Positions 13,316 to 50,593 of a stretch of 64,000 nucleotides of DNA are shown piece after piece. Every line of letters begins with the position of its first letter. Within the stretch, counting starts at the first letter, position 1. The stretch comes from an uncultured Oligoflexia bacterium. GTDB taxonomy: Bacteria; Bdellovibrionota; Bacteriovoracia; Bacteriovoracales; Bacteriovoracaceae. The position numbers and the translations under genes were made by a program. The notes under the pieces are model-generated. The model made no database searches, was not told the DNA's origin, and worked only from the letters and a program-made list of their open reading frames with translations. The stretch is taken from assembly GCA_913058265.1 (NCBI GenBank), contig CAJXPQ010000003.1, forward strand, positions 62,001 to 126,000, written 5' to 3'.

Positions 13316-14479
13316 TTACTGCTGCATATAGCGTAATAGCTTTGCTCTCTCTTCTTTAGTCATTTGAGTTTTATTTGCAAGAGGCATGGCCTTGCTAGAA
13401 ACTTGCTTAATGATCTTATCTTTATGACTTAATAATAGTTCCTCAGTCTCTAAGATGACTCCCTTCTGTGCCTCGTTAAAGACATCATCAGTATTATTCG
13501 CTGCATGACATGATAAACATCTGTTTGCCACGATAGAACTAATATCATTGTACGAAAGCTCTTCAAGATTTGTTTCTTTAATCTGGTCTTTCTTTGATGT
13601 GATAAACACTAACGCAAGTATGCCGACTGCAGCTGGAAGAACCAGAAGTTTCTCTTTAGGGTTCTTTGTGATCATTGCTTGTCTTGTCATGGCACCAGAA
13701 ACCATGATGAGCATAAGCATCAGCCAGCTTAATTCATGGTTGTAAATACTAGGGTAGTGATTACTAAGCATGATAAATAGAACTGGAAAAATGAAGTATG
13801 TATTATGAACAGATCGTGCCTTTGATTTTAAACCAAGGGAGTAGTCTGGAACTTTTCCATTTTCAGCGTCATTAAGCATCTTTGCTTGGTTGGGAAGAAT
13901 CCTGATCCAAACATTAAGCAGCATACATGTTCCGTAAATGACTCCAACTATTATAAAGGCGCCGCGGCCACTGAATAAAAAAGTAGCACCATAGATAAGA
14001 AAGCAACTCAAAACCAAAGCAAGAATATTGCTAATGGTTTTGTTTTTCATAAGTCTTGGATGGTAGATGAAATCATAGATAAACCAACTCATAGTAATAA
14101 GAGCTAAACTTAGGCCTATGGCCTGAAATTGAGAGATATCCAGAACTTGTTTATTTATCAGAAGACTTGCGTCATTTAAAAAGTACAAATAGCCAAATAA
14201 AAGAAAGCCGGTAATAAAAGTAAGAGTCGCTTCCCACTTAAACCAGTGAAGATTTTTTGGTATTTCGCCTGGATAAATTTTTCTTTTATCTACTTGATAA
14301 TAAAATCCACCGTGAACCATAAAGGCTTCACCGTCAACATTATGTCTTGGCTCTTCAGGTGGCTCGAATGCACTATCTAGCCAGATAAAGTAGAATGAGC
14401 TTCCAATCCATGAGATACCCGCTACAAGGTGTGAGAAACGTAAAATATATTCAACCCATAGATCCAAACTAGATAACAT
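13316..14479 (-). CDS. puuD: Urate hydroxylase PuuD with C-terminal cytochrome c domain
   Basis: A membrane protein of about 387 residues. The N-terminal DUF989 region has multiple helices and conserved segments (RFSHLVAGISWIGSSFYF, HGGFYYQVDKRK, LHWFKWEA). A C-terminal heme c motif (CLSCH) and a MPLANKTQMT Met ligand follow near the end. PuuD oxidises urate to 5-hydroxyisourate at the inner membrane and passes electrons through the cytochrome domain. The start is the ATG at 14479, preceded by TTGGAGG. It is divergent from UraH and the fused enzyme, so it defines a urate-breakdown locus with a shared 160-base control region. Confidence 0.88.
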   Translation of the reverse strand: MLSSLDLWVEYILRFSHLVAGISWIGSSFYFIWLDSAFEPPEEPRHNVDGEAFMVHGGFYYQVDKRKIYPGEIPKNLHWFKWEATLTFITGFLLFGYLYFLNDASLLINKQVLDISQFQAIGLSLALITMSWFIYDFIYHPRLMKNKTISNILALVLSCFLIYGATFLFSGRGAFIIVGVIYGTCMLLNVWIRILPNQAKMLNDAENGKVPDYSLGLKSKARSVHNTYFIFPVLFIMLSNHYPSIYNHELSWLMLMLIMVSGAMTRQAMITKNPKEKLLVLPAAVGILALVFITSKKDQIKETNLEELSYNDISSIVANRCLSCHAANNTDDVFNEAQKGVILETEELLLSHKDKIIKQVSSKAMPLANKTQMTKEERAKLLRYMQQ

Positions 14480-14637
14480 TGGGAAAACCTCCAAGAAATT
14501 TATTAATTAAATATTATCCTATGTTTATTTGTAAGGAATGTGAAGCGAGTTATTGACGCAACGCCATTCAATTGTGTCTAGATAATGCTTATGGATTATG
14601 ATCTAATTCTCTATTAAATTTTAAAAGGATAAAAGAC

Positions 14638-14961
14638 ATGATTAGTACTCATATTTTAGACACAAGTGTAGGCAACCCCGCTGAGAATGTAAGAGTTTTA
14701 CTGGAGAAATTTCAGAACGAATCCTGGAGTACGATCAGCGAAGGCGCAACCAATGCGGATGGAAGATTTGTGTTTGATAACGAGTCAGCTGCCGGGCAAT
14801 ATAGAATAACTTTTTTCACAACAGAATATTATCAAAAGAAAGATCTAGAGTGTTTCTTCTTAGATACGCCAGTGGCATTTAATATTACAGATACACAAAG
14901 AAAATACCATGTGCCACTTCTATTAAATCCGTTTGGTTATTCAACTTATAGAGGAAGCTAA
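14638..14961 (+). CDS. uraH: 5-hydroxyisourate hydrolase (transthyretin-like)
   Basis: At 107 residues this is a standard HIUase. It has the N-terminal ISTHILDTSVGNPA, an RITFF segment, the central YHVPLLL and the diagnostic C-terminal YRGS. It hydrolyses 5-hydroxyisourate to OHCU in the cytosol. No signal peptide is present. An AAAGGA site precedes the ATG. The stop TAA overlaps the ATG of the next gene by one base (TAATG), so UraH and the large fused enzyme are translated from one message and probably feed each other. Confidence 0.96.
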   Translation: MISTHILDTSVGNPAENVRVLLEKFQNESWSTISEGATNADGRFVFDNESAAGQYRITFFTTEYYQKKDLECFFLDTPVAFNITDTQRKYHVPLLLNPFGYSTYRGS

Positions 14962-17900
14962 TGAGCAATCGCGAAATACCTTATTATACAGACTACGTAT
15001 CTGGAGAGTTTCAAAAATACCTAGAAAATGAAGCTAAAGAGTATCCAGGTGTTGCTGGACTGGTACATATTGGCGAAACAGGTGGCCTTGAGAATTCAGA
15101 GTCTTTGAAATTTACCTGTGACCTCTATGACTGCGTTAAGGGTGAACTATTAAAGGTTTTAAATCAAAGAGCTGTTGATAGAAAATTTATAGATGAAAGA
15201 GTCAAGGTTTTCTATGAACTAAACGAAGAATATGAAAATGACTTCGAAAGTAATGAGTATCAAACAATTATTGGTCAGGAAGATTCACAGGGGCGCATTG
15301 TCATAGGCCCGAAGCTAGAAAATTATAGCGGAAAATCTGATTGTGCTAAGATTGCTCCCATCCCAGACTATTTACAGGGATTCCATGTCACTTTATTTGG
15401 TCCGCCAGATGATGCTAAATTATCTGTTAATGCTATGAATGCTTATCACCGAAAACTGAAAGATGAGCCCGCAATCATATCTGAAATATTAAAGACGAAT
15501 AAAGAAACTCCAAAATGGGGGGCAGATGATGAAGATTCAAAAACTCCACTGAGATCCGACCTTATAAGTGCCAGTACAAATTTAACAGATTGTTTAAATG
15601 GAGAGATCTCTTTTTATGATGAAAAAAGAGATAAGAATTATAAGTTAGAAAGTGAAATGCTATCTTACCCTATTAAGAGATTCCCAGGGCTTGCTCTTCC
15701 CACGACGTTTTTATTTTATTATAGAAATCCATTACCGTTACATCTATATGACTTTGCACTTCATCTCTTTGAGCATTGGAGTAATCCAAGAGCGTTAACG
15801 TTCTATGTTCCAAAACTTGAAAATGAAGAAGAAGCTGCCTATATAAAAATTATGATTAAGTCGGCCGAGAAGATGATTCAAAAAATTCACCCCGAATATA
15901 AAATTGGCACCGTTAGAGTCATCATTGTTTTAGAAAATCCAAGGGCCGTTTTTAGAGTTAATGAGATGATTGATGCTTTATACCCATACTTTGTTGGGGC
16001 ATCACTGGGTTGGCATGATTACCTTGGAAGTACTGCAAGGTTAATGAAGAACGATGCAAATTATAGAATTCCAGTTAAAGCAGATCCAGATATCGTTATT
16101 AAATATATTAAAGCTTCACATGACCTTCTAGCTAATGTTGTAGGAGAGCGCGGTGGTATTAAGATTGGTGGGATGTACGGGATACTACCTATCACAAATG
16201 AACTCTTTTCAGATTCCTTTCAGATCACTATGCGAGGTTTCTTTCGTGATGTTATCACCCAAATGAAGAGAGATTTATCTGGATATTGGGTTGCCCACCC
16301 TGACTTTGTTCGAATCGGGATTGCTATTGTCGAAGCTTGGCGAATTCATGCTAATGGCGACTCAAGTAAACTTCTAGGAATAACGAATGCATTATTAAAT
16401 GAAAAATATGCCAAAGAAGTATGGGACTTTGTTTTAGCAGATGATATTGAGGGGCTTGATTATACCGATCCTTTATATGCAAGATCTTTAATTGTTGCTG
16501 ATATTAAAGAGTCGAGTTTTATCGCTAATAATCACCCTGATGAAATAAGATATAATGTTTTTCAAATGCTACAGTACTTAACAGACTGGCTAACTGGTAA
16601 TGGTTGTGTCGCCTTGCCGACGCAAATTAATGGTATCTCCGCAAGAGTCATGGATGATCTCGCAACAGCTGAAAGATCTAGGTGGGAAGTATGGCATGAA
16701 ATTCACCATGGTAGATTTAGAGTTGAAGATCTTATTAAAATTGCCCATGAAGAGATGAACTTTATTCGTCGCGATCTCTCAAATGATAAAAAGATCGTAG
16801 AAGTTAAATATACTGAAGAGAATTCAAAGTGGTATGAGGTTGCCTTTAAGCTTATGCTAAAGCTTATGACCGACAAAGAACCGGTGGAATTTGCGACAGA
16901 GCTATTACTTCCTTTTACAATCGAGTCACTACGTGAGAATCCTGAGCCTTGGGAGAAGATTACTGAAGTAGACACTGAAAAGTTTAAGATTGATTCTTAT
17001 GTTGAGAAATATAATTTTTACTTTGAAAACTGTGGTTCTGAAAAATTTGCATCTGAAAATGTGAGAAATTTATTTGTTGATGAAAGCTGTATGAGAAAAT
17101 CAATTATGGAGTTCTCGAAGGATGATATCGTTCAAGCTGCAGGTTTTCATGGAGATATCGGACAGTCAGCAAAAACACTGGACTCTGTCGCTAAATTAGA
17201 GCAACAAAGCGTAAGTAATGACTCTGCCGAACTTCAACATAAGCTATTAAGCCTAGGTATTGAATATTCTAATAAGTTTAAGATGAAATTTCTTGTCAGT
17301 GCTAAAGGCAAAATAGGATCAGAGCTACTCAATATTTTAGAATCTAGAATAAATAACCTTGAGACAGAAGAGATTGAAAATGCAAAGAAGGCGCTCTTTG
17401 AAATTACAATTAAAAGAATGGGGACAGATAAAGTATCAGATCCTCAAGAAAAATTAAAAAATATTTTTAAACAATCAAATATTCAAGGAACACAAATTAG
17501 TATTTCTTCAGCTAAGGGGAGCTATCAAAACTTGAGTTTTGGTTCTAAGGGCAATAACTCTACTGTTGATTATGATACCCAATTTCAAATTGCTTCCCTT
17601 TCAAAAACATTTGCTACTGCTTTTGCTTTGGAGTTCTTTGTAGATCAAGGAATTTCGGAGTCTGATAAAGTAAATGATATCTTGCGGAAACATAAGAGTT
17701 CTTTTCTCTTAACTTCATCAGTAGATGAGAGTTGGGGGGATCTTGTACAGATTAAGCATTTAATGAGTCATTGTGCCCTTAATATGCATTATGTAGAAGG
17801 CGTTATGAGCACAGACGCTATTCCTGATATTTCAGATCTTGTTATTGATGTTATCAATAAACCAGGTACTAAGTTTAAGTATTCAGGCGCCGGTTTTATC

Positions 17901-19604
17901 GTTTTACAATATCTTATCGAATTGATTGGTCAGTCAGATCTCAACTCATTATCTAAAAACTTCTTTAAGCATTTGGGTCTTTCACATATGGACTTCTCTC
18001 CAGAAATGAATAAGTCGAACTTTAGTGTAGGGTTTAGTGATACTAAGGAAGGAATCGAAGGTGGATACAAAAAATTTCCAGGTTTTGCTGCTGGAATGTG
18101 GGGAACAGCTGCAGATGTTTTAAAATTCCTTGAGCATATTGCCTCCGCTTTTGATGATGTCGAGGGCAGTGGGGGAATCTCTCATGATACAGCCGTCCAC
18201 ATGACTTACGGCACGGATAAAGGGTGCAAACCTTTTATGAATACTCTTATGGGAATGGGAGTCTTCACAATTGAAGCCGGAGAGAATGAGTTCTTACTTC
18301 ATCAAGGTGCTAATGATGGATTTAGAGCAATATACCTTTATTGTTATAAGGGGCCAGATAAATATAAGGGCTTCTGTATAACATCCACAGGTGAGCTTAA
18401 TGGAGTCTTATACATTTCTCAAGCCTCTCAGCTATTATTAAAAGAGTTAGGTATTCAAGGAATTGATTATAATAAATTTCAAACAAATTTTGAATCTAAG
18501 AACCTATCAAGTGAGCAGATAGTTAATATTGGTTATAAGGACCTTTTTCTAAATGCATTTAAAGCAACTCTACCTGAACAGATTAAAGGAGAGAAGCTAA
18601 AGTGTACTTATGCTGATTTTAACTTACTTGATAATGCGGAGATAGTTTCTGTCTCCAATCAAAGATTTGCTAGGGCCGTGAATCTCTTGAGTCCTTATGA
18701 TCCAGTCTTTGACCCCGCTGAATTTGGTCGTCAGGGAAAGGTGATGGATAGCTGGGAGTCAGCAAGACATAATCCTGAAGACTTTGATTATATAAATTTA
18801 AAGCTTTCTAAGAAGTCGGATATTAACTTTGTTTTTCTTTCAACTAAGTATCATGACGGAAATCAAGTGGAGTGGGTTGAAATTCTCTCTGATGAAAATA
18901 CTCTTCTAAGAAAGACTAGGCTTGAAGGGCATAGTGCTCTTAATATTAAATTAAATGAAACGATTCCTGGTTGTGAGAACATTACAATCAGAGTTTTCCC
19001 AGACGGTGGTCTTACGAGAGTGGCGCTCTTTGATGAATTGCCCCCAGATCATCCGGCAGAATTCCTTCCGGAAGATGAAGCCTTTTGTATCCGATTTAAA
19101 GAAAGTATTCCTCAATCATTAAAACCACTTGGTATTAATCCTCATTACTTTAAAAAGAACGATTACTCTAAGAAACTAAATTACGCTTCACTTGCCCTAG
19201 GCGCAAAGGTAGTAAGTGCTACTGATGAACATTATGCTCCAGCGGAGAATGTTCTTTCACCTTTTAAACCTCTGAATATGTTTGACGGGCTTGAATCAAG
19301 AAGGTCTAGAGAGAAAAATCACTTTGAGGAAGTTGTCATTGAACTGGCAACTTCTATTATACCTAATGAGATACATTTTGATTTTACTTACTTTGTGAAT
19401 AATAATCCAAAAGAGCTTTCAGTCTTTTGTGAGAGTGAGTCCGATGGTAAGTGGATTCCTCTATTTGAAAAATATTCATGTAAAGAATATGCCGGTAACT
19501 ACTTAGTCTTAAAATCTGATCAAGGAATTAAATCAAACAAAATTAAAGTGCAACTCTATCCAGATGGTGGAGTTAATAGAGTTAAGGTTTATGGTAAAGA
19601 GTAA
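14961..19604 (+). CDS. Four-domain urate-to-malate fusion: malate synthase, OHCU decarboxylase, serine hydrolase, allantoicase
   Basis: This 1547-residue cytosolic protein appears to join four enzymes. Residues 1-660 resemble malate synthase A (IAPIPDYLQG, LTFYVPKLE, YWVAHPDFV, LTGNGCVAL, MDDLATAERSRWEVW; Asp566 fits the catalytic base). Residues 670-822 match OHCU decarboxylase (His730 in FHGDIG, Glu747-Gln748, KRM end), though divergent. Residues 823-1165 form a beta-lactamase/S12-type hydrolase with Ser879-x-x-Lys882, Tyr974 and HQG at 1114. Residues 1205-1547 are the two allantoicase repeats, each ending FPDGG or YPDGG. With PuuD and UraH this covers urate oxidation, ring opening, allantoate cleavage and glyoxylate capture. 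No allantoinase or ureidoglycolate lyase is visible, and the hydrolase could fill one of these gaps (inference). The frame is intact. Confidence 0.88.
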   Translation: MSNREIPYYTDYVSGEFQKYLENEAKEYPGVAGLVHIGETGGLENSESLKFTCDLYDCVKGELLKVLNQRAVDRKFIDERVKVFYELNEEYENDFESNEYQTIIGQEDSQGRIVIGPKLENYSGKSDCAKIAPIPDYLQGFHVTLFGPPDDAKLSVNAMNAYHRKLKDEPAIISEILKTNKETPKWGADDEDSKTPLRSDLISASTNLTDCLNGEISFYDEKRDKNYKLESEMLSYPIKRFPGLALPTTFLFYYRNPLPLHLYDFALHLFEHWSNPRALTFYVPKLENEEEAAYIKIMIKSAEKMIQKIHPEYKIGTVRVIIVLENPRAVFRVNEMIDALYPYFVGASLGWHDYLGSTARLMKNDANYRIPVKADPDIVIKYIKASHDLLANVVGERGGIKIGGMYGILPITNELFSDSFQITMRGFFRDVITQMKRDLSGYWVAHPDFVRIGIAIVEAWRIHANGDSSKLLGITNALLNEKYAKEVWDFVLADDIEGLDYTDPLYARSLIVADIKESSFIANNHPDEIRYNVFQMLQYLTDWLTGNGCVALPTQINGISARVMDDLATAERSRWEVWHEIHHGRFRVEDLIKIAHEEMNFIRRDLSNDKKIVEVKYTEENSKWYEVAFKLMLKLMTDKEPVEFATELLLPFTIESLRENPEPWEKITEVDTEKFKIDSYVEKYNFYFENCGSEKFASENVRNLFVDESCMRKSIMEFSKDDIVQAAGFHGDIGQSAKTLDSVAKLEQQSVSNDSAELQHKLLSLGIEYSNKFKMKFLVSAKGKIGSELLNILESRINNLETEEIENAKKALFEITIKRMGTDKVSDPQEKLKNIFKQSNIQGTQISISSAKGSYQNLSFGSKGNNSTVDYDTQFQIASLSKTFATAFALEFFVDQGISESDKVNDILRKHKSSFLLTSSVDESWGDLVQIKHLMSHCALNMHYVEGVMSTDAIPDISDLVIDVINKPGTKFKYSGAGFIVLQYLIELIGQSDLNSLSKNFFKHLGLSHMDFSPEMNKSNFSVGFSDTKEGIEGGYKKFPGFAAGMWGTAADVLKFLEHIASAFDDVEGSGGISHDTAVHMTYGTDKGCKPFMNTLMGMGVFTIEAGENEFLLHQGANDGFRAIYLYCYKGPDKYKGFCITSTGELNGVLYISQASQLLLKELGIQGIDYNKFQTNFESKNLSSEQIVNIGYKDLFLNAFKATLPEQIKGEKLKCTYADFNLLDNAEIVSVSNQRFARAVNLLSPYDPVFDPAEFGRQGKVMDSWESARHNPEDFDYINLKLSKKSDINFVFLSTKYHDGNQVEWVEILSDENTLLRKTRLEGHSALNIKLNETIPGCENITIRVFPDGGLTRVALFDELPPDHPAEFLPEDEAFCIRFKESIPQSLKPLGINPHYFKKNDYSKKLNYASLALGAKVVSATDEHYAPAENVLSPFKPLNMFDGLESRRSREKNHFEEVVIELATSIIPNEIHFDFTYFVNNNPKELSVFCESESDGKWIPLFEKYSCKEYAGNYLVLKSDQGIKSNKIKVQLYPDGGVNRVKVYGKE

Positions 19605-34680: not shown

Positions 34681-37600
34681 ATGACAAAAGTATTGGGATT
34701 TTTAAGCCATTTAATGCTTTTTCTTTTAGTTTCCTGTGTTGGAGACGCGATTGAAAATACAGAAAAGCGACAAGAAATTGCCGATGCGGCCATATCGACT
34801 CCCTTTATATCCTCTGTATCACCTGCAAATGATGGGCTTACTGGTGGTGGAACTTTAACAATTACCGGTATTCGTTTAGACGGAACCTCTGTAACTGTTG
34901 GAGGAGCAAACTGTCCAATCATAACTCAATCAGGATCAATTCTTACTTGTACTATTCCAGCTGGATCAGTTGGTGGTGCAGATATTGTTATTATTAACTC
35001 TGATCTTGAATCTGATTTAGATAATACTTCTTTTACTTATGTTACCGCTCCGACTGTTTCCGCTATAAATATTTCGGTTGGATCAGATCTTGGTGGTGAT
35101 AGCGTTATGATCACAGGTACTGACTTTTATAATGTGACAGATATTCAGATTGGTGGCACTAGCTGTACTTCTATAGTGCAGACACTATCAACAGTTGCTA
35201 CTTGTACCACAGCAGCAACGGCGGCCGGTGGTCCTTTTAATGTCGTTGTAACAAACGGTGATGTCGCTGCTCAAACAGGAACGGGACTCTCATTATTTAC
35301 ATATGAAACACCTCCAAGCATTACAAGTCTTGATCTTACTTCACTATATGAAGCAGGAGCTCAAACCCTCACTATAACTGGAACTGATTTCATTTCACCT
35401 CCGGTAGTAAGAATAGATGGAAATATTTGTACAGCAGTATCAGATAACGCTACCACGATTGTTTGTACGACTCCTGCTGGAGTTGGAACTGGAGTAAACG
35501 TAGTTGTTGCAAACCCAAGTGGAATTTCAGATACTACGACGACAAATTATACTCCGGCACCAACAGTAAGCTCTATTGACTTAAACTATGGCCTACTTGC
35601 TGGTGGAGATTTAATTACAATTACCGGGACAAATTTTACTTCAGGGGGAAGCTTTGATATTTCTGCCGCTGGAGTTCCTTGTACGACACCTACATTTCTA
35701 AGTGCAACAAGTGTCACTTGTTTAACAGCAGCAGGAGCCTCTAGTGGAGTTGTCGTTGTTACAAATAATGACGGTCAAACAGCAAGTAGTGCAACCAACT
35801 TTACTTATAGAGCTGCGCCTGGACTAACCCTCGTTGCACCAATTGAAGGTGCTACAGGTGGAGGAACAAATATAACTCTAACCGGATCAGGTTTTGATCT
35901 AACAAATATATCTGTATCGATTGATGGTGACCCATGTACAAATATTGTTGTCGGAAGTGCTACTAGTTTAACATGTGACACTCCTGCTCACGCTGCAGGT
36001 CTTGTTGATATTATTGTTACTAATACAGAAGATAATCAGTCATCAGTAGCGTTAGCAAATTCTTATACTTTTAACTTACCACCATCTCTAGCTTCACTCT
36101 CTGTGAATTATGGACCTGTGGCCGGAACAAATACTATTTCATTTTTAGGTACAGACTTTTCAGCAGGAGCTATTGCAAGTATTGATGGTTTTAACTGTAC
36201 TAGTTCAACGGTTATTAGTACCGCCCAGGTTGACTGTGATGTACCTGCTCACGCGGCAGGATTAGTTAATATTGCCATTACTAATGCTGACGGACAGTCC
36301 GTGTCACTTAATTCAGCCTATACTTATACTCCGGCTCCAACTGTTACAGCTGTTTCTCCTGAAGCAGGACCTACAGCGGGCGGACAAACTATAACTCTAA
36401 CGGGAACAGCTTTTTTTCCTGGACTTGCAATTACTGTAAATAGTGTTGCTTGTACGACAAGTACATATATTAGTTTTACCTCTGCTACATGTGTGACTCC
36501 AAGTAATGGAGGAGCTGGTGGACCTTTCACAGTTGAAGTGACAAATACTGATGCTCAAGTTGGGAACCTTGTAACTTCTTATGAATATATTGTTCCGCCA
36601 ACAGTAACAAGCATGGCGCCAACAATTGGTAACGGTGCTGGTGGAGACGTAATTACTGTGACCGGAACAGACTTCTATGTTGCTGGTGGAGTAAGTGCAA
36701 CAATAAATGGAGTTTCTTGTACCGGTATAACGAGTCTTACTGCAACTAGTTTTGATTGTACAACTGGAAATAATGGCGGGCTTGGTGGTCCATTCACAAT
36801 GACTGTTACTAACACAGTCGATGGTCAAACTGGAACTGGTGGAGCCTTTGAATTTATTGCACCTCCTACAATTTCTGATATTAAAGAAAGTACTGCTACT
36901 GATTCAATCGACGGTGGTACTTTAAACGGTGGAAATACAATTCGCATTGAAGGTGGGAATTTTCAAGTCGGTGTCGCTGCCACCATAGGTACTGCAACTT
37001 GTACTATTACAAGAATTGATGCAAATAATTTAGACTGTATTCTTTCCGCCGGGCCACATGCGCTTGGAGCAACAGATCTTGTTGTTACAAATATTGATGC
37101 TCAATCTGCAACATCTGTTGGTGCTTATACTTTTAGAACCCCACCAACAATTACAGGCTATGATTCACCTGTTGGCCCTATCGCAGGGGGAAATACATTA
37201 ACTATAACTGGAACCGACTTTGTTGATGGTGATGATTTCGCTATTAGTATTGGAGGGACTCCATGTACATTATCTACTTTTCTAACGACCACTTCTGCTA
37301 CCTGTGATGTCCCAGCTGGTATTCTAGGAGCTGCAGCAGTTTTAGTTTTTAATGATGACTATCAAAGTGTAACAGATGGAACAGGATATACTTATGTTGC
37401 AGATCCAACCATAGTGAGTTTCGCTCCTACAACAATTTACGAAGTAGGTTCTCAATCTTTAATTATTACTGGAACTGATTTTTATGCAGGAGCAACAGTT
37501 ACTGTTGACGGTAACGATTGTACTCCACTAGTTGTGGATTCAGTGACTCAAATTACCTGTACTACACCTCCAGCTGACTCCGCCGGTATTGGGACTGTTA

Positions 37601-40581
37601 CTGTGGAAGTGACAAGCCTTGCAGGTCAGACGGGTACAAATACTATTGATTATACACCAGCACCAACTATTACTGGTTATGACTATGCCTATGGTCCTGC
37701 TATAGGTGGAAATACAATTACTATTGCAGGTACAGGCTTTGTAGCTGCGGGAAGTTTTGGAATTTCTATTGATGGAACACCATGTACAACTTCAACTCAT
37801 TTAAGCGCAATATCTGCAACATGTGTTGTACCAGTCGGTACGGGAACAGTTGATATTGTACTTACTAATAATGATGGTCAAACTGTGACTGATCCTGGTG
37901 CCTTTAACTATGTTCCAGGTCCTACTTTGACAAGTTTTAATCCTACTACAATTCATGCCGTGGGTTCTCAGACTTTAGTGATCACTGGGACTGACTTTCA
38001 GTCGGATACTGTTATAACTATTGATGGAAATCCATGTGGTACTCTTACTTATGATAGTGCGACTCAATTAACTTGTGTGACACCTGCCGGTACTGCTGGA
38101 TCAGTCAATGTGATTGCGACAAACTCAGATACACAAACAGATACAACGACAATTACTTATGTTGATGCTCCAACTATTGCCTCATTTAACCCCACAACAA
38201 TAACCGAGGTGGGCAGTGAGTCCTTAGTTATAACGGGAACTGGATTTTTAGCATCAGCAACTGTCACGATTGACGGTAATGCTTGTACTCCACTTACTGT
38301 TGATAGCTTAACTCAAATTACTTGTACCACGCCACCTGCAGATTCTACTGGAGTTGGAACAGTTACAGTTGAGGTGACAAATACAGACTCACAAACAGGG
38401 ACAAATACTATTGATTATTTACCTGTTCCAACGATAACAAGTTATGATTATGCTTATGGTCCTGCTGCAGGTGGAAACACGATTGTTCTTACAGGAACTG
38501 GCTTTGTTACAGGGGGAAGTTTTGATATCGCTATTGATGGTACTCCTTGTACAACCGCAACCTTCTTAACAGTTACTACAGCAAGCTGTGTGGTTCCCGC
38601 TGGTGCTCTTGGATCAGTTGATGTTTTACTCACAAACTTTGATGGTCAGACAGTGACTGATTCTGGAGCATTTGAATATGTTGCTGCTCCAACATTAGTA
38701 AGTTTTAACCCTACAACTCTACACGCCGCTGGCGGGCAGAGTTTAGTTATTACTGGTACTGGTTTTCAAGCAGATTCAGCTATAACTATAGATGGAAATG
38801 CTTGTACGACTTTAGTGTATAATAGTGCTACTCAACTTACATGTACGACCCCAGTTGGGGCCGCAGGAACTGTTAATGTCGTTGTAACAAATTCAGATGC
38901 GCAAACAGATACTACGACAATTGATTATGTGAACGCCCCAACGATTAGCTCTTTTAACCTTGCTACAATAATGGAAATCGGAAGCCAAAGTCTGGTGATT
39001 ACTGGAACTGGTTATTTAGCTGGAGCAAGTGTTACTGTTGGTGGAAACCCATGTGTTCCATTAACTGTTGACTCTCTTACACAAATTACTTGTACCACTC
39101 CTTCTGGATCAGGTGCAAGTTCAAGTATTGTTGTGGCCAATACTGATGGGCAAACAGCTACTTCAAGTCTAGATTATAAACCAAAACCGATTATAACATC
39201 TGTTACTACTACCGATGGAGCTTATGGAAGTTCAGGTGGTGGAGATACAGTTACCATTTCAGGCTCTGGTTTTTATGATGATATAGGATCTCCTACGATT
39301 ATGATTGGAGCCGCGGCTTGTAGTGCTCCGACAATTGTTAGTACTTCAACTATCACTTGTACCTCTGGAGTAAATGCAGCAGGGCTTGTCAGTATTACGA
39401 TTACAAACGCAGATACACAAACGGATACACTGGCAAGTGGTTTTACCTACACAAATTTACCAACTTTTATTAGTGTGTTACCGGTCTCAGGTTCTATTGC
39501 TGGCGGAACAGTTCTCGTTATTACGGGAACTAATTTTACTGCTGATACAACGGTTGATGTTGGTGGTAGCACTTGTTTATCTTTATCTTTTGATAGTGTC
39601 AGTCAGATAACTTGTACCTCTCCAAGTGGGAGTAGTGGTTCTGTGGCGATTGATATTGATAATCCTGGTCGTCCTACAGTTAGTACTGCAGCTGCTTATA
39701 CCTATTTAAATAACGGACCTAGTATAACTTCAATTTCTCCACAAGGTGGAGCTATTACTGGTGGTACTGCAGTAACAATTACTGGAACCGATTTTGATCC
39801 TACTATTACTGATGGAGATGTGGTTATTGGTGGAATTAATTGTACCGGTGTTTCAGCTGCTGCAACCTCGATAACATGTACGACTGGAAATCATATAACG
39901 GCAGGTTTTGGAGACGTTGTTGTTACTAATACGGATGCTCAAGCAGATACTCTGGCGACAGGATACCTTTATGCTCAAGGGCCTACACTTACTTCAATCT
40001 CTCCAACTAGCGGATCTACTGCTGGTGGAACAACTATAACACTTACGGGTAGTGACTTTGCAGCCTCTGCAGTTATAACTGTCGGTGGAGTTAGTTGTGG
40101 AAGTGCTGTTTATACGAGTGCAACAACAATGAGCTGTGTGACTCCGGTAGGAACAACCGGAGCTGCTGATGTGGTCGTAACACAATTTTTTCAATCATCC
40201 ACTTTAACTGGTGGTTTTACTTATAGTGCTGGTGCAACACTTGCTTGGCAAGTTGGAGCTGGAGCACCAAACCCTCCGAATCCAGCAGACTACGCAGACC
40301 CTGGAGCAGATCTTGGAATGGTATTTACACTTCAAAACACAGGTGTTGTAACATCATCAACTATATCCTTAACTTTATCGGGTACAAACTCAACAGTGTG
40401 GACATTACTATCTGACAATTGCTCTGGAACGACTTTAGCTGCTGGAGCATCCTGTACAGTCAATGCATACTTTCAATGGTCTTTACTTCCTGACGGTCCG
40501 ACAGTTTACTCTGCAACTTTAGAGGCCTCTGCCGCTACAGGTGGAACAACAACAAATGCCTTACAAGGACAAAACCTATGA
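34681..40581 (+). CDS. Giant lipoprotein with 21 TIG/IPT repeats
   Basis: The 1966-residue protein starts with a lipobox (LLVSC). I count 21 TIG/IPT-like repeats of about 80-90 residues from residue 40 to about 1840. Each has GG-x-x-(I/L)-T-(I/L)-T-G-T-x-F, then a Cys, then C-x-x-P. The pair of Cys per repeat should form one disulfide each. A C-terminal domain of about 115 residues (LSDNCSGTTLAAGASCTVN) resembles choice-of-anchor domains. TIG rods make long surface fibres or adhesins. Units 11-13 and 14-16 are near-copies, pointing to recent segmental duplication. The partner gene overlaps its stop by four bases. Confidence 0.9.
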   Translation: MTKVLGFLSHLMLFLLVSCVGDAIENTEKRQEIADAAISTPFISSVSPANDGLTGGGTLTITGIRLDGTSVTVGGANCPIITQSGSILTCTIPAGSVGGADIVIINSDLESDLDNTSFTYVTAPTVSAINISVGSDLGGDSVMITGTDFYNVTDIQIGGTSCTSIVQTLSTVATCTTAATAAGGPFNVVVTNGDVAAQTGTGLSLFTYETPPSITSLDLTSLYEAGAQTLTITGTDFISPPVVRIDGNICTAVSDNATTIVCTTPAGVGTGVNVVVANPSGISDTTTTNYTPAPTVSSIDLNYGLLAGGDLITITGTNFTSGGSFDISAAGVPCTTPTFLSATSVTCLTAAGASSGVVVVTNNDGQTASSATNFTYRAAPGLTLVAPIEGATGGGTNITLTGSGFDLTNISVSIDGDPCTNIVVGSATSLTCDTPAHAAGLVDIIVTNTEDNQSSVALANSYTFNLPPSLASLSVNYGPVAGTNTISFLGTDFSAGAIASIDGFNCTSSTVISTAQVDCDVPAHAAGLVNIAITNADGQSVSLNSAYTYTPAPTVTAVSPEAGPTAGGQTITLTGTAFFPGLAITVNSVACTTSTYISFTSATCVTPSNGGAGGPFTVEVTNTDAQVGNLVTSYEYIVPPTVTSMAPTIGNGAGGDVITVTGTDFYVAGGVSATINGVSCTGITSLTATSFDCTTGNNGGLGGPFTMTVTNTVDGQTGTGGAFEFIAPPTISDIKESTATDSIDGGTLNGGNTIRIEGGNFQVGVAATIGTATCTITRIDANNLDCILSAGPHALGATDLVVTNIDAQSATSVGAYTFRTPPTITGYDSPVGPIAGGNTLTITGTDFVDGDDFAISIGGTPCTLSTFLTTTSATCDVPAGILGAAAVLVFNDDYQSVTDGTGYTYVADPTIVSFAPTTIYEVGSQSLIITGTDFYAGATVTVDGNDCTPLVVDSVTQITCTTPPADSAGIGTVTVEVTSLAGQTGTNTIDYTPAPTITGYDYAYGPAIGGNTITIAGTGFVAAGSFGISIDGTPCTTSTHLSAISATCVVPVGTGTVDIVLTNNDGQTVTDPGAFNYVPGPTLTSFNPTTIHAVGSQTLVITGTDFQSDTVITIDGNPCGTLTYDSATQLTCVTPAGTAGSVNVIATNSDTQTDTTTITYVDAPTIASFNPTTITEVGSESLVITGTGFLASATVTIDGNACTPLTVDSLTQITCTTPPADSTGVGTVTVEVTNTDSQTGTNTIDYLPVPTITSYDYAYGPAAGGNTIVLTGTGFVTGGSFDIAIDGTPCTTATFLTVTTASCVVPAGALGSVDVLLTNFDGQTVTDSGAFEYVAAPTLVSFNPTTLHAAGGQSLVITGTGFQADSAITIDGNACTTLVYNSATQLTCTTPVGAAGTVNVVVTNSDAQTDTTTIDYVNAPTISSFNLATIMEIGSQSLVITGTGYLAGASVTVGGNPCVPLTVDSLTQITCTTPSGSGASSSIVVANTDGQTATSSLDYKPKPIITSVTTTDGAYGSSGGGDTVTISGSGFYDDIGSPTIMIGAAACSAPTIVSTSTITCTSGVNAAGLVSITITNADTQTDTLASGFTYTNLPTFISVLPVSGSIAGGTVLVITGTNFTADTTVDVGGSTCLSLSFDSVSQITCTSPSGSSGSVAIDIDNPGRPTVSTAAAYTYLNNGPSITSISPQGGAITGGTAVTITGTDFDPTITDGDVVIGGINCTGVSAAATSITCTTGNHITAGFGDVVVTNTDAQADTLATGYLYAQGPTLTSISPTSGSTAGGTTITLTGSDFAASAVITVGGVSCGSAVYTSATTMSCVTPVGTTGAADVVVTQFFQSSTLTGGFTYSAGATLAWQVGAGAPNPPNPADYADPGADLGMVFTLQNTGVVTSSTISLTLSGTNSTVWTLLSDNCSGTTLAAGASCTVNAYFQWSLLPDGPTVYSATLEASAATGGTTTNALQGQNL
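37405..38937 (+). repeat. Tandem three-unit duplication inside the TIG gene
   Basis: A 765-768-base block is repeated (starting near 37405 and 38170, with the next one-unit copy near 38938). Units 11/14 (EVGSQSLIITGTDF vs EVGSESLVITGTGF), 12/15 (DYAYGPAIGGNTI vs DYAYGPAAGGNTI) and 13/16 (SFNPTTIHAVG vs SFNPTTLHAAG) pair better with each other than with their neighbours. This is expected from unequal crossover or slippage in a surface gene. Confidence 0.75.
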
Positions 40582-46464: not shown

Positions 46465-48762
46465 TTAGAAAAATGCCAGCTGGGAACCTGTGAATATTGC
46501 ATCAAAGTGCTTACCTTGAGAGTTTAAAATATCATCTGCAAGTGGCTTAATTTGCTTTTCAATATAATGCTGATAATCATAACTTGTCGGATTTGACTGT
46601 ATCGGCTCTGGCCCTGATGGAGTAATAACATAGCTCACTTCTTTTAATCTATAGGGTCCTGTGTGATTCACCTTCAAGGCGGCCTTAACATGAATGGGGA
46701 TATTCTTTACATATTCTTCTGGTGCCTTTGATAGTCTTTTAGTGTAAACAAGAAGGTCGTCAAATTTTCCTTCTTCAAGATCAGCAATATACTTTTTAAT
46801 AAATTGCTCCATCTCTTCACCTTGAAAGTACATTTCATAGATGGTGCGTTGGAAGTTTTTGGCAAGTTCAGTCCAATCAGAGCGGACTGTTTCCATTCCT
46901 TTAAATTCGATTTCACCGTCAAGGTAGCCAGCATACCGTTTCTTGGCCGCAGTATTAGAGCCTCGTGACATACTGAAGAATATCTGGTCAAAAGTCTTCT
47001 CGAATTCACATTCTAGATATGAGGTTACTTGGAACTCATCAGCAAGAAGTCTCTTTATATAGATATCTATTTCGTTGGTGAGTTCTTGACAATAGTCTTT
47101 GTCTTTTACTTGAGACTCGTTGAGTTTTACAAAAATAGAGTCGGTGTCACCATATATAACTTCATGCCCACGATTTTCAAAGAACTGCATCGTCGCTTTC
47201 AAAATATAATGCCCAGTTGTGGTAATGGCAGTAGGGAGGTCAGAATGGTAGAATCTACATCTCGTTGATCCCATAACACCATAGAAGCTATTCATTAAAA
47301 TCTTAATCGCTTGAGAAAGATTTTTATTATTATTTTGTTTGGCAAACTCTCTTTGTTCTAAAAGCCGTTCGATAATACTTGGAAGTAAGTGCTCCGTGTG
47401 AGAAAACTCAAAACCTTCAGGAGTTTTGAGGGGATTGGTATCACTTTTGATATTTGAATAGGGGTCAATATTAAAACTTCGAATAATAGATGGATATAAG
47501 CTTTTAAAATCAAAGATCGCAACATTCTTATGGAGACCAGCTTTTGGCTCTATAACGAGTCCTCCCGCGGTAGTTTCATCTCGAATAATATCGACTCTAT
47601 TCGGTCCTATATAGCCTTTTCTGTGAAGCAAAGGGAGGAAGTGGTGGTCGAAGGCCGCAGTTGAAACGCCAATTCTATCCATGAGTAATCCCGATATCTG
47701 AACTCTTTTAATCATTAAATCAAAGATACCAAGTTTAAGGTATATATCCGTGACAAGAGTACAATCTAAGATATTATATTTTGCTAATGCTTCTTTATCT
47801 TCTTTGAACCTTCTCTCTATTTCATTTACCTTGCCCGCATCTGAAGCAATATCTTTACCTGTGCCTAGAACTTCACTGGCAACGGTATCAAGTTTAAAGT
47901 TTTTAAATTGGTAAAAAGCATTTCTTAGAACTGGAGGACCGTCCAGTACGATTCGTCCCGTAATATTGGCAAAGAATCCAGCACCACGTCTTTCGTCTAA
48001 TTTTATTTTTGAATTATTTCTACCAATCGTGAAGCCAAGCCCATATTTTACAAGTTTTCTCTCAAGAAACATCAAGTCAAAACCAATCACATGCCAACCA
48101 ATTAGTAAGTCAGGGTCATACTCATTAAAGGTATGAATAAAAGATTCTAGTAGTTTTTTTTCATTATCAAAGTAAGTGAGCTCATTTGAAACTTTTCTAT
48201 TTTCATTACTCATCATCAGGACAAGATTTTCTCTTTGGCCTTCCTTCTCATAAGAAAGCGCAATTGAATAAAGATCGCCATTAGATCCCGTCTCAATATC
48301 CAGAGAGATAAGACTAAGTGATACCGCATGTGATGATTTTCTAATCTGAGGATTTAAGTAAGTTGTAAGTCCATTTTTCTCTTCAGGTACACCTTGGATT
48401 TCAATATTACCATTAACAAATCGCTCCATGAGATATCTCTCTGTTGGAGGAACATCTACTTCATAAGTTCTAATACCTTTTGTTTCACAATACTCTCTAG
48501 CTAGTTGCAGATCTTTGTATTGGTTTAGATAAATTGTATCTACGCTTTTGTGAGCGAAGCTTTTAAGCCCACCTGGTTTTCTTTCAAATTTAATATGATC
48601 AGGGTTAAACTTTGAATCATTGTCGACAAAAAAAACAACCCGTTCATTTTGTATCTTAATTACAAAAGGATTATGATTATTTGTACAGTAGTAGGTCAGC
48701 TCCAGACCGTTATGAGTATCATAATAATGTGAGGTAAGGATAAAGCCTAGTTCAGTTTTCAT
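46465..48762 (-). CDS. polB: DNA polymerase II (family B)
   Basis: The 765-residue protein has intact exonuclease motifs (SLDIETGSNGD; LIGWHVIGFDLMFLER) and polymerase motifs (FDFKSLYPSII; ILMNSFYGVMGS; YGDTDSIFV), ending with KKRYAGYLDG. This is the E. coli Pol II (PolB) type, used in repair and replication restart, often in the SOS response. No LexA box was identified. The length is close to the 783-residue E. coli enzyme. The ATG overlaps the end of the ABC-F gene by 11 bases. Confidence 0.96.
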   Translation of the reverse strand: MKTELGFILTSHYYDTHNGLELTYYCTNNHNPFVIKIQNERVVFFVDNDSKFNPDHIKFERKPGGLKSFAHKSVDTIYLNQYKDLQLAREYCETKGIRTYEVDVPPTERYLMERFVNGNIEIQGVPEEKNGLTTYLNPQIRKSSHAVSLSLISLDIETGSNGDLYSIALSYEKEGQRENLVLMMSNENRKVSNELTYFDNEKKLLESFIHTFNEYDPDLLIGWHVIGFDLMFLERKLVKYGLGFTIGRNNSKIKLDERRGAGFFANITGRIVLDGPPVLRNAFYQFKNFKLDTVASEVLGTGKDIASDAGKVNEIERRFKEDKEALAKYNILDCTLVTDIYLKLGIFDLMIKRVQISGLLMDRIGVSTAAFDHHFLPLLHRKGYIGPNRVDIIRDETTAGGLVIEPKAGLHKNVAIFDFKSLYPSIIRSFNIDPYSNIKSDTNPLKTPEGFEFSHTEHLLPSIIERLLEQREFAKQNNNKNLSQAIKILMNSFYGVMGSTRCRFYHSDLPTAITTTGHYILKATMQFFENRGHEVIYGDTDSIFVKLNESQVKDKDYCQELTNEIDIYIKRLLADEFQVTSYLECEFEKTFDQIFFSMSRGSNTAAKKRYAGYLDGEIEFKGMETVRSDWTELAKNFQRTIYEMYFQGEEMEQFIKKYIADLEEGKFDDLLVYTKRLSKAPEEYVKNIPIHVKAALKVNHTGPYRLKEVSYVITPSGPEPIQSNPTSYDYQHYIEKQIKPLADDILNSQGKHFDAIFTGSQLAFF

Positions 48763-50593
48763 GTATATCGCTCAATTGTTTATCAAATTTTTCACTTAAC
48801 TCTAGAAATTCCATCTCAAACACCTCTAGTTCTTCAAAGGCGCTGTTGATCTGAGTTTCGAGTTTACCAATTTTCATTGATGCATCCATGATTTTATCAT
48901 TGTCTGCAGCTTCAGTCGCTTCTGCTATGATTTTTGTTTGTTCATCCATTTCTTTTTCATAGTCTGAAATAAGTTTTTCGTGTACATCGATTTTTTTCTG
49001 GATCGGATTACAAGTTCTCGCTCTCTCTTTTATTATCTCGGCCCTGCGTGCATGTATTTCTTTCTTAGAAAGAGTTGGCTTTTCCTCTTTACTTTCTTTG
49101 TTGAGATTTTCTTCTTCCCAGCCAATTTTTTCAAGAAACTCTGTATAGTTACCTAAGAAGACCTCTGCGATTCCCTTATGAAATATAATGAGCTTCGTAC
49201 AAAGATTTTTTAATAATGATTCATTATGGGTCACAAGTGTAATTGCCCCTGGGTAGTTGATCAGTTCATCTGCAAGAATCTCAATGGATTCCATATCAAG
49301 ATGGTTGGTAGGCTCATCAAGCATTAAGATATTTGTTTCGTTTGCAATGATTTTTCCAAGTAAAACTCTATTTTTCTCACCACCAGATAAGACTGATATT
49401 TTCTTTTTTGCAAGGTCACTTGAGAACATCAGGCTTCCTGCGATATTTCTGATTGCAGTTGAGGATAGCGCGTCGTTTGCAGACTGTATTTCATTAATGA
49501 CTGTATTTGATCCATGCAGACGGTCAATATTTGTTTGTCCAAAATGGCCTGTTTGTATGGAAGGGTGAGTTTTTATCGTGCCAGATAAGGTGTCTAATTC
49601 TCCGTTCATAACATTCAGAAGGGTAGACTTACCTTTTCCATTTTTTCCAATGATACCGATTCGATCTTTTTTTCCCACGCTCAAAGTGAGATCTTTGAAG
49701 AGAATTTCATCCTCTTTAAATCCAAAGCTTATATTATTAAGTTCCAAAATAGTTTTTCCAGGGCATTCTTTATAATTAAATTGCAGGCCCATACTGGCTT
49801 CATCTTTTAGGTCATCCATGGATTCAAGTTTATTTAATTGCTTAAGCTTACTTTGGGCCTGAGCAGCCTTTGAAGCTTTTGCACTAAAGCGATCAACAAA
49901 GGCTTCAAGGTGTGCCTTCTTCTTATCAACATTAACCTTTGTTTTAAGATAGATTTCATCTTCTAATTCTAGTTGTTCGTAGAACTTATTGGTTGAGCCT
50001 TTTATTTTCTTAAGTGTTGATCTCGTAATACCCATTGTGTGGGTTGTGACACTATCCATGAAGGCCCTATCATGGGTAATCAATATAACTTCCCCAGTAA
50101 ATGATCTTAGGAATGATCTTAACCACCTTAATGAAAGTATATCCAAGTAATTTGTTGGTTCATCAAGTAATAAGAGATTAGGTTCAATGAGAAGACATTT
50201 ACATAAATTAATACGAATTTGATATCCGCCAGAGAAACTATTAGGGTTCTTTTGCAAGTCTTCATCGGTAAAGCCCAGACCAAAGAGGATTTTATTTGCA
50301 AGATGAAAATCAAACTGCTGTTCTTCGGGAAGGACCTGAACACATTCCTCTAAGACCGTTGGTTTAGTAAATTGGATATGCTGCTCCAATGATCCAATTT
50401 TATAGCCTTTAGGGATAGAGATGTTTCCGCCATCAGCTAACTGTTTTCCAAGTATCATGGAGAAAATGGTCGATTTTCCAGAACCATTCCTTCCCACGAG
50501 ACCACACCGTTCACCTTTTTGAAGATTAAAAGATATATTTTCAAAAAGAATTTGATCGGAAAATGATTTCGATAAATTTGAAATTTGAATCAT
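48752..50593 (-). CDS. ABC-F family ATPase (YheS/Uup-like)
   Basis: The 613-residue protein has two ABC domains with no membrane part. The Walker A motifs are GRNGSGKST and GKNGKGKST, the signatures are FSGGYQIR and LSGGEKNR, and the Walker B motifs are LLLLDEPTNYLD and ILMLDEPTNHLD. A charged linker sits between them and a coiled-coil C-terminus (about 510-610) follows. ABC-F proteins act on ribosomes, in translation factor or resistance roles. It is placed between the 399-residue gene and polB in one tight unit. Confidence 0.93.
   Translation of the reverse strand: MIQISNLSKSFSDQILFENISFNLQKGERCGLVGRNGSGKSTIFSMILGKQLADGGNISIPKGYKIGSLEQHIQFTKPTVLEECVQVLPEEQQFDFHLANKILFGLGFTDEDLQKNPNSFSGGYQIRINLCKCLLIEPNLLLLDEPTNYLDILSLRWLRSFLRSFTGEVILITHDRAFMDSVTTHTMGITRSTLKKIKGSTNKFYEQLELEDEIYLKTKVNVDKKKAHLEAFVDRFSAKASKAAQAQSKLKQLNKLESMDDLKDEASMGLQFNYKECPGKTILELNNISFGFKEDEILFKDLTLSVGKKDRIGIIGKNGKGKSTLLNVMNGELDTLSGTIKTHPSIQTGHFGQTNIDRLHGSNTVINEIQSANDALSSTAIRNIAGSLMFSSDLAKKKISVLSGGEKNRVLLGKIIANETNILMLDEPTNHLDMESIEILADELINYPGAITLVTHNESLLKNLCTKLIIFHKGIAEVFLGNYTEFLEKIGWEEENLNKESKEEKPTLSKKEIHARRAEIIKERARTCNPIQKKIDVHEKLISDYEKEMDEQTKIIAEATEAADNDKIMDASMKIGKLETQINSAFEELEVFEMEFLELSEKFDKQLSDIHEN

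Follow-up and report, generated by a model that had tools for sequence, protein, structure and literature searches.

We propose that the S12-type serine-hydrolase domain of a four-enzyme fusion protein, encoded in the window (the whole 64,000-nucleotide stretch of DNA that was analysed), is likely the allantoinase of its pathway. This assignment is drawn from comparative genomics and the evolution of the active site, and the activity on allantoin itself is inferred. Its active site is intact, and it always lies between the OHCU decarboxylase and the allantoicase. An earlier note had argued for a non-homologous allantoinase from position alone, and this idea is now supported by both lines of evidence described below.

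The fusion protein and its S12 domain

The features of the locus are listed in Table 1. All four domains of the fusion passed the Pfam gathering scores in the stated order, confirming the earlier placement of the S12 domain between the OHCU decarboxylase and allantoicase. The Pfam matches covered residues 242-454 (malate synthase TIM barrel), 527-647 (MS_C), 710-820 (OHCU_decarbox), and 838-1064 (Beta-lactamase, PF00144); the best Pfam stretch of the allantoicase repeats was 1414-1546, and the NCBIfam allantoicase model also matched 1226-1363. The earlier picture had to be corrected in that three NCBIfam models (OHCU decarboxylase, malate synthase, allantoicase) did not reach their curated cut-offs with the fusion. 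The malate synthase region met both Pfam cut-offs (MS_TIM-barrel, 68.8 bits; MS_C, 47.3 bits) but not that of the equivalog TIGR01344 (143 bits against 594.5), and it is a divergent malate synthase. Its Arg240, Glu325, Asp353, and Asp566, which we take to be the catalytic residues, aligned with positions conserved in E. coli malate synthase A. Similarly, His730, Glu747-Gln748, and Arg819, taken here to be functional residues of the OHCU decarboxylase domain, are common to separate UraD proteins, and alignment indicated that the OHCU-decarboxylase and allantoicase domains retain columns common to the separate enzymes.

The HIU hydrolase gene lies upstream of the fusion, its stop codon overlapping the fusion's start (TAATG), and its product exceeded the TIGR02962 cut-off (127.3 bits against 87.45). 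The gene of PuuD, which oxidises urate via a cytochrome c (PMC4562309), is divergent from both and is also a cluster partner in relatives. It encodes a membrane Urate_ox_N domain and a C-terminal CxxCH cytochrome c (haem) motif, CLSCH at residue 326. Elsewhere in the window, a 1966-residue protein with 21 TIG/IPT repeats (34681-40581) is probably a giant surface protein, and a DNA polymerase II gene (46465-48762; NF004421 above cut-off) overlaps that of an ABC-F-type ATPase (48752-50593).

Table 1. Positions in the window of the fusion gene, its domains and S12 motifs, and the neighbouring urate genes
Feature	Position	Strand	Basis or remark
Four-enzyme fusion ORF, 1547 aa	14961..19604	+	Malate synthase, OHCU decarboxylase, S12, allantoicase x2 (Pfam)
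Malate synthase domain, residues 1-675	14961..16985	+	PF01274, PF20659; alignment to PDB 3cuz
OHCU decarboxylase domain, residues 681-822	17001..17426	+	PF09349
S12 serine-hydrolase domain, residues 823-1165, proposed allantoinase	17427..18455	+	PF00144, 4.4e-15
Motif 1, Ser879-Leu-Ser-Lys882	17595..17606	+	Proposed nucleophile and general base; kept in 64/64 copies; codons Ser879 17595-17597, Lys882 17604-17606
Subfamily loop, His937-Cys-Ala-Leu-Asn941-Met-His943	17769..17789	+	Near-invariant; proposed substrate recognition
Motif 2, Tyr974-Ser-Gly976	17880..17888	+	Tyr proposed as proton shuttle; codon Tyr974 17880-17882
Motif 3, His1114-Gln-Gly-Ala-Asn1118-Asp-Gly-Phe-Arg1122	18300..18326	+	His kept in 67/67; codons His1114-Gln-Gly 18300-18308
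Allantoicase repeats, residues 1216-1547	18606..19601	+	PF03561, 1.3e-39
HIU hydrolase, transthyretin-like, ends YRGS	14638..14961	+	PF00576, 2e-33; HIU to OHCU
PuuD-type urate oxidase	13316..14494	-	PF06181, 2.8e-93; urate to 5-hydroxyisourate

By family, the domain is an S12 serine hydrolase with the standard fold. It scored 56.1 bits against PF00144 (cut-off 27) and met the Ser-x-x-Lys, catalytic Tyr, and (Lys/His)-x-Gly criteria of S12. The earlier domain limits (residues 823-1165) and the assignments of Ser879, Lys882, Tyr974, and His1114-x-Gly held when the positions were recomputed from the DNA. However, motif 2 is Tyr-Ser-Gly and not the classical Tyr-x-Asn, so that the Asn is not present; Tyr-x-Asn is typical of S12, but its Asn is not required of all S12 enzymes. 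The AlphaFold2 model of the domain showed a mean pLDDT of 94.2. Its top structural match was the IS11 esterase 7spn (Z 34.7, 316 residues, rmsd 2.5), followed by a Pyrococcus PBP homologue (Z 34.2) and a D-amino-acid amidase (Z 33.6), and LACTB, an FmtA-like protein, ClbP, and class C beta-lactamases were also matched. The class C beta-lactamase model NF033085 was not met (35.9 bits against 415), and searching PDB sequences with the S12 alignment brought up generic S12 enzymes only. The generic fold does not point to a substrate, since its matches range over esterases, lactamases, peptidases, and amidases. As true amidases and peptidases are among these relatives, we infer that the fold could open an activated ring amide.

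The active site was then compared among the phylum-wide copies covering each position. Besides the residues counted in Table 1, Tyr974 was kept in 64 of 66 copies, Gln1115-Gly1116 of motif 3 in 64 of 67, and Gly976 in 66 of 66. Every exception at the catalytic columns, including the only replacements of Tyr974 by Phe, falls in one genus, g9. The catalytic Ser, Lys, Tyr, and His were likewise invariant in a separate 48-sequence alignment, 47 of whose sequences came from named genomes, Planctomycetota included.

Distribution of the fusion and its exchange with AllB and PuuE

A search of 59 related genomes gave full-length relatives with 46-58% identity in 8 genomes besides the own one, all belonging to two families. 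These relatives, together with the near-invariant S12 active site across phylum copies, indicate that the fusion ORF is not a chance product. Allantoicase was present in 96 of the 368 genomes of the phylum sample, and S12-bearing copies were retrieved from 65 of those 96, genus g9 being excluded; the 65 include genomes in which the S12 domain is cut by a contig end or frame-broken (G117, L054). Every complete copy showed the domain order of malate synthase, OHCU decarboxylase, S12, and allantoicase, and in two genomes (G063, L049; G316, L050) the chain was split inside the OHCU decarboxylase domain. Frame breaks within the S12 domain were seen at L054:4036-8671 (G117) and L136:5544-10151, where decay and assembly error are indistinguishable. 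When the S12 alignment was used to scan named genomes, 80 loci carrying the fusion, whole or in part, were recovered, some of them in Planctomycetota; 47 of these loci entered the separate 48-sequence alignment. As most of these genomes are metagenome-assembled, the labels of single bins need caution. The fusion is old and stable, recurring widely in Bdellovibrionota and Planctomycetota.

At the planctomycete locus L160, the neighbours by Pfam were genes for soluble uricase, HIU hydrolase, and xanthine dehydrogenase; locus L139 additionally carried a cytidine/guanine-deaminase-type protein, and L180 resembled both by eye. These three loci carry the four-enzyme fusion and look like nearly complete clusters for taking purines to malate. 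The S12 tree placed 14 planctomycete-type rows in one group (SH-aLRT 99) amid Bdellovibrionota rows, and this nesting suggests transfer of the whole fusion between the two phyla. Owing to a very long outgroup branch, the position of the root is uncertain.

Two cluster designs were observed in the phylum. The separate type contains PuuD, AllB, allantoicase, OHCU decarboxylase, HIU hydrolase, and DUF6986, whereas the fusion type contains PuuD, HIU hydrolase, and the fusion. Matching them step by step indicates that S12 stands for AllB and malate synthase for DUF6986; the presence of AllB in the corresponding place is in line with the earlier allantoinase idea. The separate type varies: PuuD is not adjacent in all, and one stretch (L041) is without AllB, its genome having PuuE elsewhere. 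Among 80 genomes searched, DUF6986 was found in 21 of 25 separate-type, 0 of 52 fusion, and 0 of 3 g9 genomes. Of two DUF6986 proteins compared with PF01274, one gave a match, below the cut-off. We consider DUF6986 (PF22484; for example L036:9588-10937 and L043:9071-10477) a probable malate-synthase-like glyoxylate enzyme, regular in separate-allantoicase urate clusters. An ORF of 875 residues joining PuuD and AllB was also noted (L057:1338-3965, G350).

We next analyzed whether the fusion coexists with a known allantoinase, defined as AllB (TIGR03178) or PuuE (TIGR03212) above the curated cut-off; at most four AllB and six PuuE first-look candidates were scored per genome. The S12 fusion and AllB/PuuE were mutually exclusive in the surveyed genomes. 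In the phylum sample, neither enzyme exceeded its cut-off in any of the 65 genomes with the fusion, among them the own genome, whereas 23 of the 25 separate-allantoicase genomes had one (22 AllB, 1 PuuE; Fisher p 1.9e-19, uncorrected for relatedness). With completeness of 90% or more and contamination of 5% or less required, the counts were 0 of 39 against 17 of 17. In the two separate-type exceptions, AllB was cut by a contig end (G301, L055) or the allantoicase lay at a contig end (G361). Conversely, AllB passed the cut-off in 23 of the 368 genomes, each with allantoicase (22 separate-type and G011 of genus g9), and PuuE in a single genome, G033, one of the 25 separate-allantoicase genomes. 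Genus g9 (G011, G146, G147) was counted apart from both types. Three further allantoicase genomes (G131, G140, G125) were left out of the 65 since the S12 stretch was not seen, and these showed no AllB or PuuE above cut-off. Another 25 fusion genomes, mostly Planctomycetota, were drawn from the 80 named loci (18 planctomycete or otherwise labelled, 2 proteobacterial, and 5 Bdellovibrionota/Oligoflexia by title); AllB and PuuE were each above cut-off in 0 of 25.

The earlier note had seen no AllB or PuuE in the window. This held, and the genome search that the note had called for extends it to the whole genome, which is 99.6% complete; neither enzyme was above cut-off in the other 64 fusion genomes or the 25 further ones. 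A single strong TIGR03178 match came up in the own genome, at 216 bits (cut-off 358), and PuuE matched nowhere in it; the fusion protein itself matched neither TIGR03178 nor TIGR03212. Several AllB-like proteins were rejected as candidates. The 216-bit protein is a dihydroorotase (TIGR00857, 394.7 bits, cut-off 279), and two weaker amidohydrolase matches, L002 and L003, were YtcJ-like by eye. In G019, the strongest match proved likewise to be a dihydroorotase (NF006559, 576.7 bits against a cut-off of 482). Of the below-cut-off matches in the further fusion genomes, those typed, in G373 and G371, are dihydropyrimidinases with TIGR02033 above cut-off.

Both cluster types occurred within families f1, f6, and f8 and within genera g151 and g162, which favours repeated exchange. 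It remains possible that the types swap as whole blocks, in which case the exclusion would partly reflect one correlated event per transfer and not 65 independent ones.

Genus g9 and alternative explanations

Genus g9 encodes S12 and allantoicase together in a protein of their own, 763-791 residues long and detached from UraD, and its malate synthase, observed in G011 and G146, likewise stands alone. In G011, AllB is fused to the OHCU decarboxylase in one 617-residue ORF adjoining HIU hydrolase (L048:6877-8730; TIGR03178, 507 bits), and G146 and G147 carry an extra separate allantoicase. The S12 active site was altered in this genus: Tyr974 was replaced by Phe (2 of 2), Asn941 and His943 were changed (2 of 2), and motif 3 had turned from His-Gln-Gly to His-His-Ala, with Gln-Gly lost in 3 of 3. 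Near-invariant columns were changed at 6 of 38 in g9, compared to 0-2 of 32-33 in nine other, mostly long-branched lineages. A loss of this kind would follow if the arrival of AllB had made the S12 reaction unnecessary. AllB was detected in one of the three g9 genomes, the other two being 68-72% complete. We regard the g9 loss as strong but not conclusive support, as it is one event, with AllB in one of three incomplete genomes. At two g9 loci (L044, L034), two class-V-aminotransferase-like genes (by eye) and a half-allantoicase of 166-179 residues stand beside the split S12-allantoicase; the pathway seems rebuilt, and a route through ureidoglycine is conceivable.

Alternatively, the S12 domain might act on ureidoglycolate, as an amidohydrolase or a urea-releasing enzyme, and feed glyoxylate to malate synthase, while an unrecognised enzyme opens allantoin. 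This was the other reading offered by the earlier note. It is favoured by the absence of AllA (PF04115) from the S12-bearing genomes (found in 0 of 10) and by the glyoxylate requirement of the malate synthase domain. However, AllA was likewise found in 0 of 8 separate-allantoicase genomes with AllB or PuuE, making it absent from all 18 genomes searched, the own included (the control search was positive in E. coli only), and PF04115 did not match the fusion protein. Moreover, no S12 gene was recognised in separate-type clusters. Because the AllA gap is common to both designs, it is not what S12 fills by exchange; AllA is ruled out as the exchanged function, and S12 swaps with AllB and not with a ureidoglycolate enzyme. 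This alternative, which would also leave about 90 genomes without any allantoinase, is thus weakened and unlikely. The ureidoglycolate-splitting enzyme of the pathway, for which AllA and UAH have been distinguished (PMC3793230), remains unaccounted for. Either the allantoicase or a slow, non-enzymatic breakdown of ureidoglycolate might account for this step.

Another explanation is that a promiscuous dihydroorotase or dihydropyrimidinase opens allantoin and the S12 domain does other work, such as on another pathway amide. Dihydroorotase is indeed present in the own genome and G019, and dihydropyrimidinase in the two other-phylum fusion genomes checked. Nevertheless, the sole match under 1e-20 in G000 is the dihydroorotase needed for pyrimidines, the best TIGR03178 matches in G007 and G017 reached only ~120 bits, and a housekeeping enzyme leaves the constant absence of AllB beside the fusion unexplained; we judge this very unlikely. 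The same holds for a purely structural or regulatory S12 domain without catalysis. Although S12 is the least conserved domain of the fusion (14% invariant columns against 35% for malate synthase in nine fusions), its catalytic residues are all invariant outside g9.

Proposed reaction and its meaning

With allantoinase as the preferred function, Ser879, activated by Lys882 and Tyr974, would attack allantoin at the imide-like carbonyl of its hydantoin ring. The ring (acylurea) nitrogen would leave, protonated by Tyr974, and stay tethered as a ureido group, comparable to the tethered amine left by beta-lactam opening. Water activated by Tyr974/Lys882 may then release allantoate from the acyl-enzyme, and His1114, Gln1115, Asn1118, Arg1122, Asn941, and His943 are predicted to keep the ureido and ring carbonyl groups in position. 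The route would not depend on a metal, in contrast to that of AllB. Allantoate would be split to ureidoglycolate by the allantoicase, the next domain of the same chain, so that UraD, S12, and allantoicase would stand in reaction order, and the final glyoxylate would be taken up by the N-terminal malate synthase to give malate.

The allantoinase reaction has so far been assigned to two unrelated families, the AllB amidohydrolases and PuuE. AllB, a metal-dependent amidohydrolase TIM barrel, corresponds to the S12 domain in its pathway step and, as the exchange shows, in its position within the cluster, and in G011 it is even fused to UraD; its fold and chemistry are unrelated to the serine acyl-enzyme proposed for S12. 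PuuE, which is polysaccharide-deacetylase-like and also unrelated to S12, is a precedent for a non-homologous allantoinase. With S12/family VIII proteins (IS11 esterase 7spn, D-amino-acid amidase 2drw, ClbP, LACTB, and class C beta-lactamases) the domain shares the fold, SxxK, Tyr, and HxG, but at only 13-21% identity to the listed structural matches, and it differs from them in Tyr-Ser-Gly, the subfamily residues Asn941, His943, Gln1115, and Asn1118, and the fusion to urate enzymes. The study that found PuuD as the missing urate-pathway enzyme by gene neighbourhood and co-occurrence (PMC4562309) was likewise based on gene association; it covers urate to allantoin, and the word "allantoinase" is absent from its main text. 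In the open-licence PubMed Central literature searched, nothing relevant was found on the fusion, a serine/beta-lactamase-type allantoinase, or DUF6986.

A bolder reading, which we also consider likely with the reaction inferred, is that the domain represents a third non-homologous allantoinase class: a metal-free, penicillin-binding-protein-like acyl-serine S12 enzyme within a four-enzyme megaprotein, which would carry urate to malate with three genes (PuuD or uricase, HIU hydrolase, and the fusion) and would have spread between Bdellovibrionota and Planctomycetota as one unit. If true, the missing allantoinase step would be filled for a broad set of predatory-type and aquatic bacteria, and allantoin opening would have a serine-hydrolase solution, with an S12 fold acting on a hydantoin. 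As S12 proteins are usually annotated as beta-lactamases, correct naming also bears on resistance annotation. Furthermore, a single polypeptide would unite four steps of the pathway, three of which follow the order of the reactions, and the fusion would thereby be a natural test case for the channelling of unstable ureides and reactive glyoxylate.
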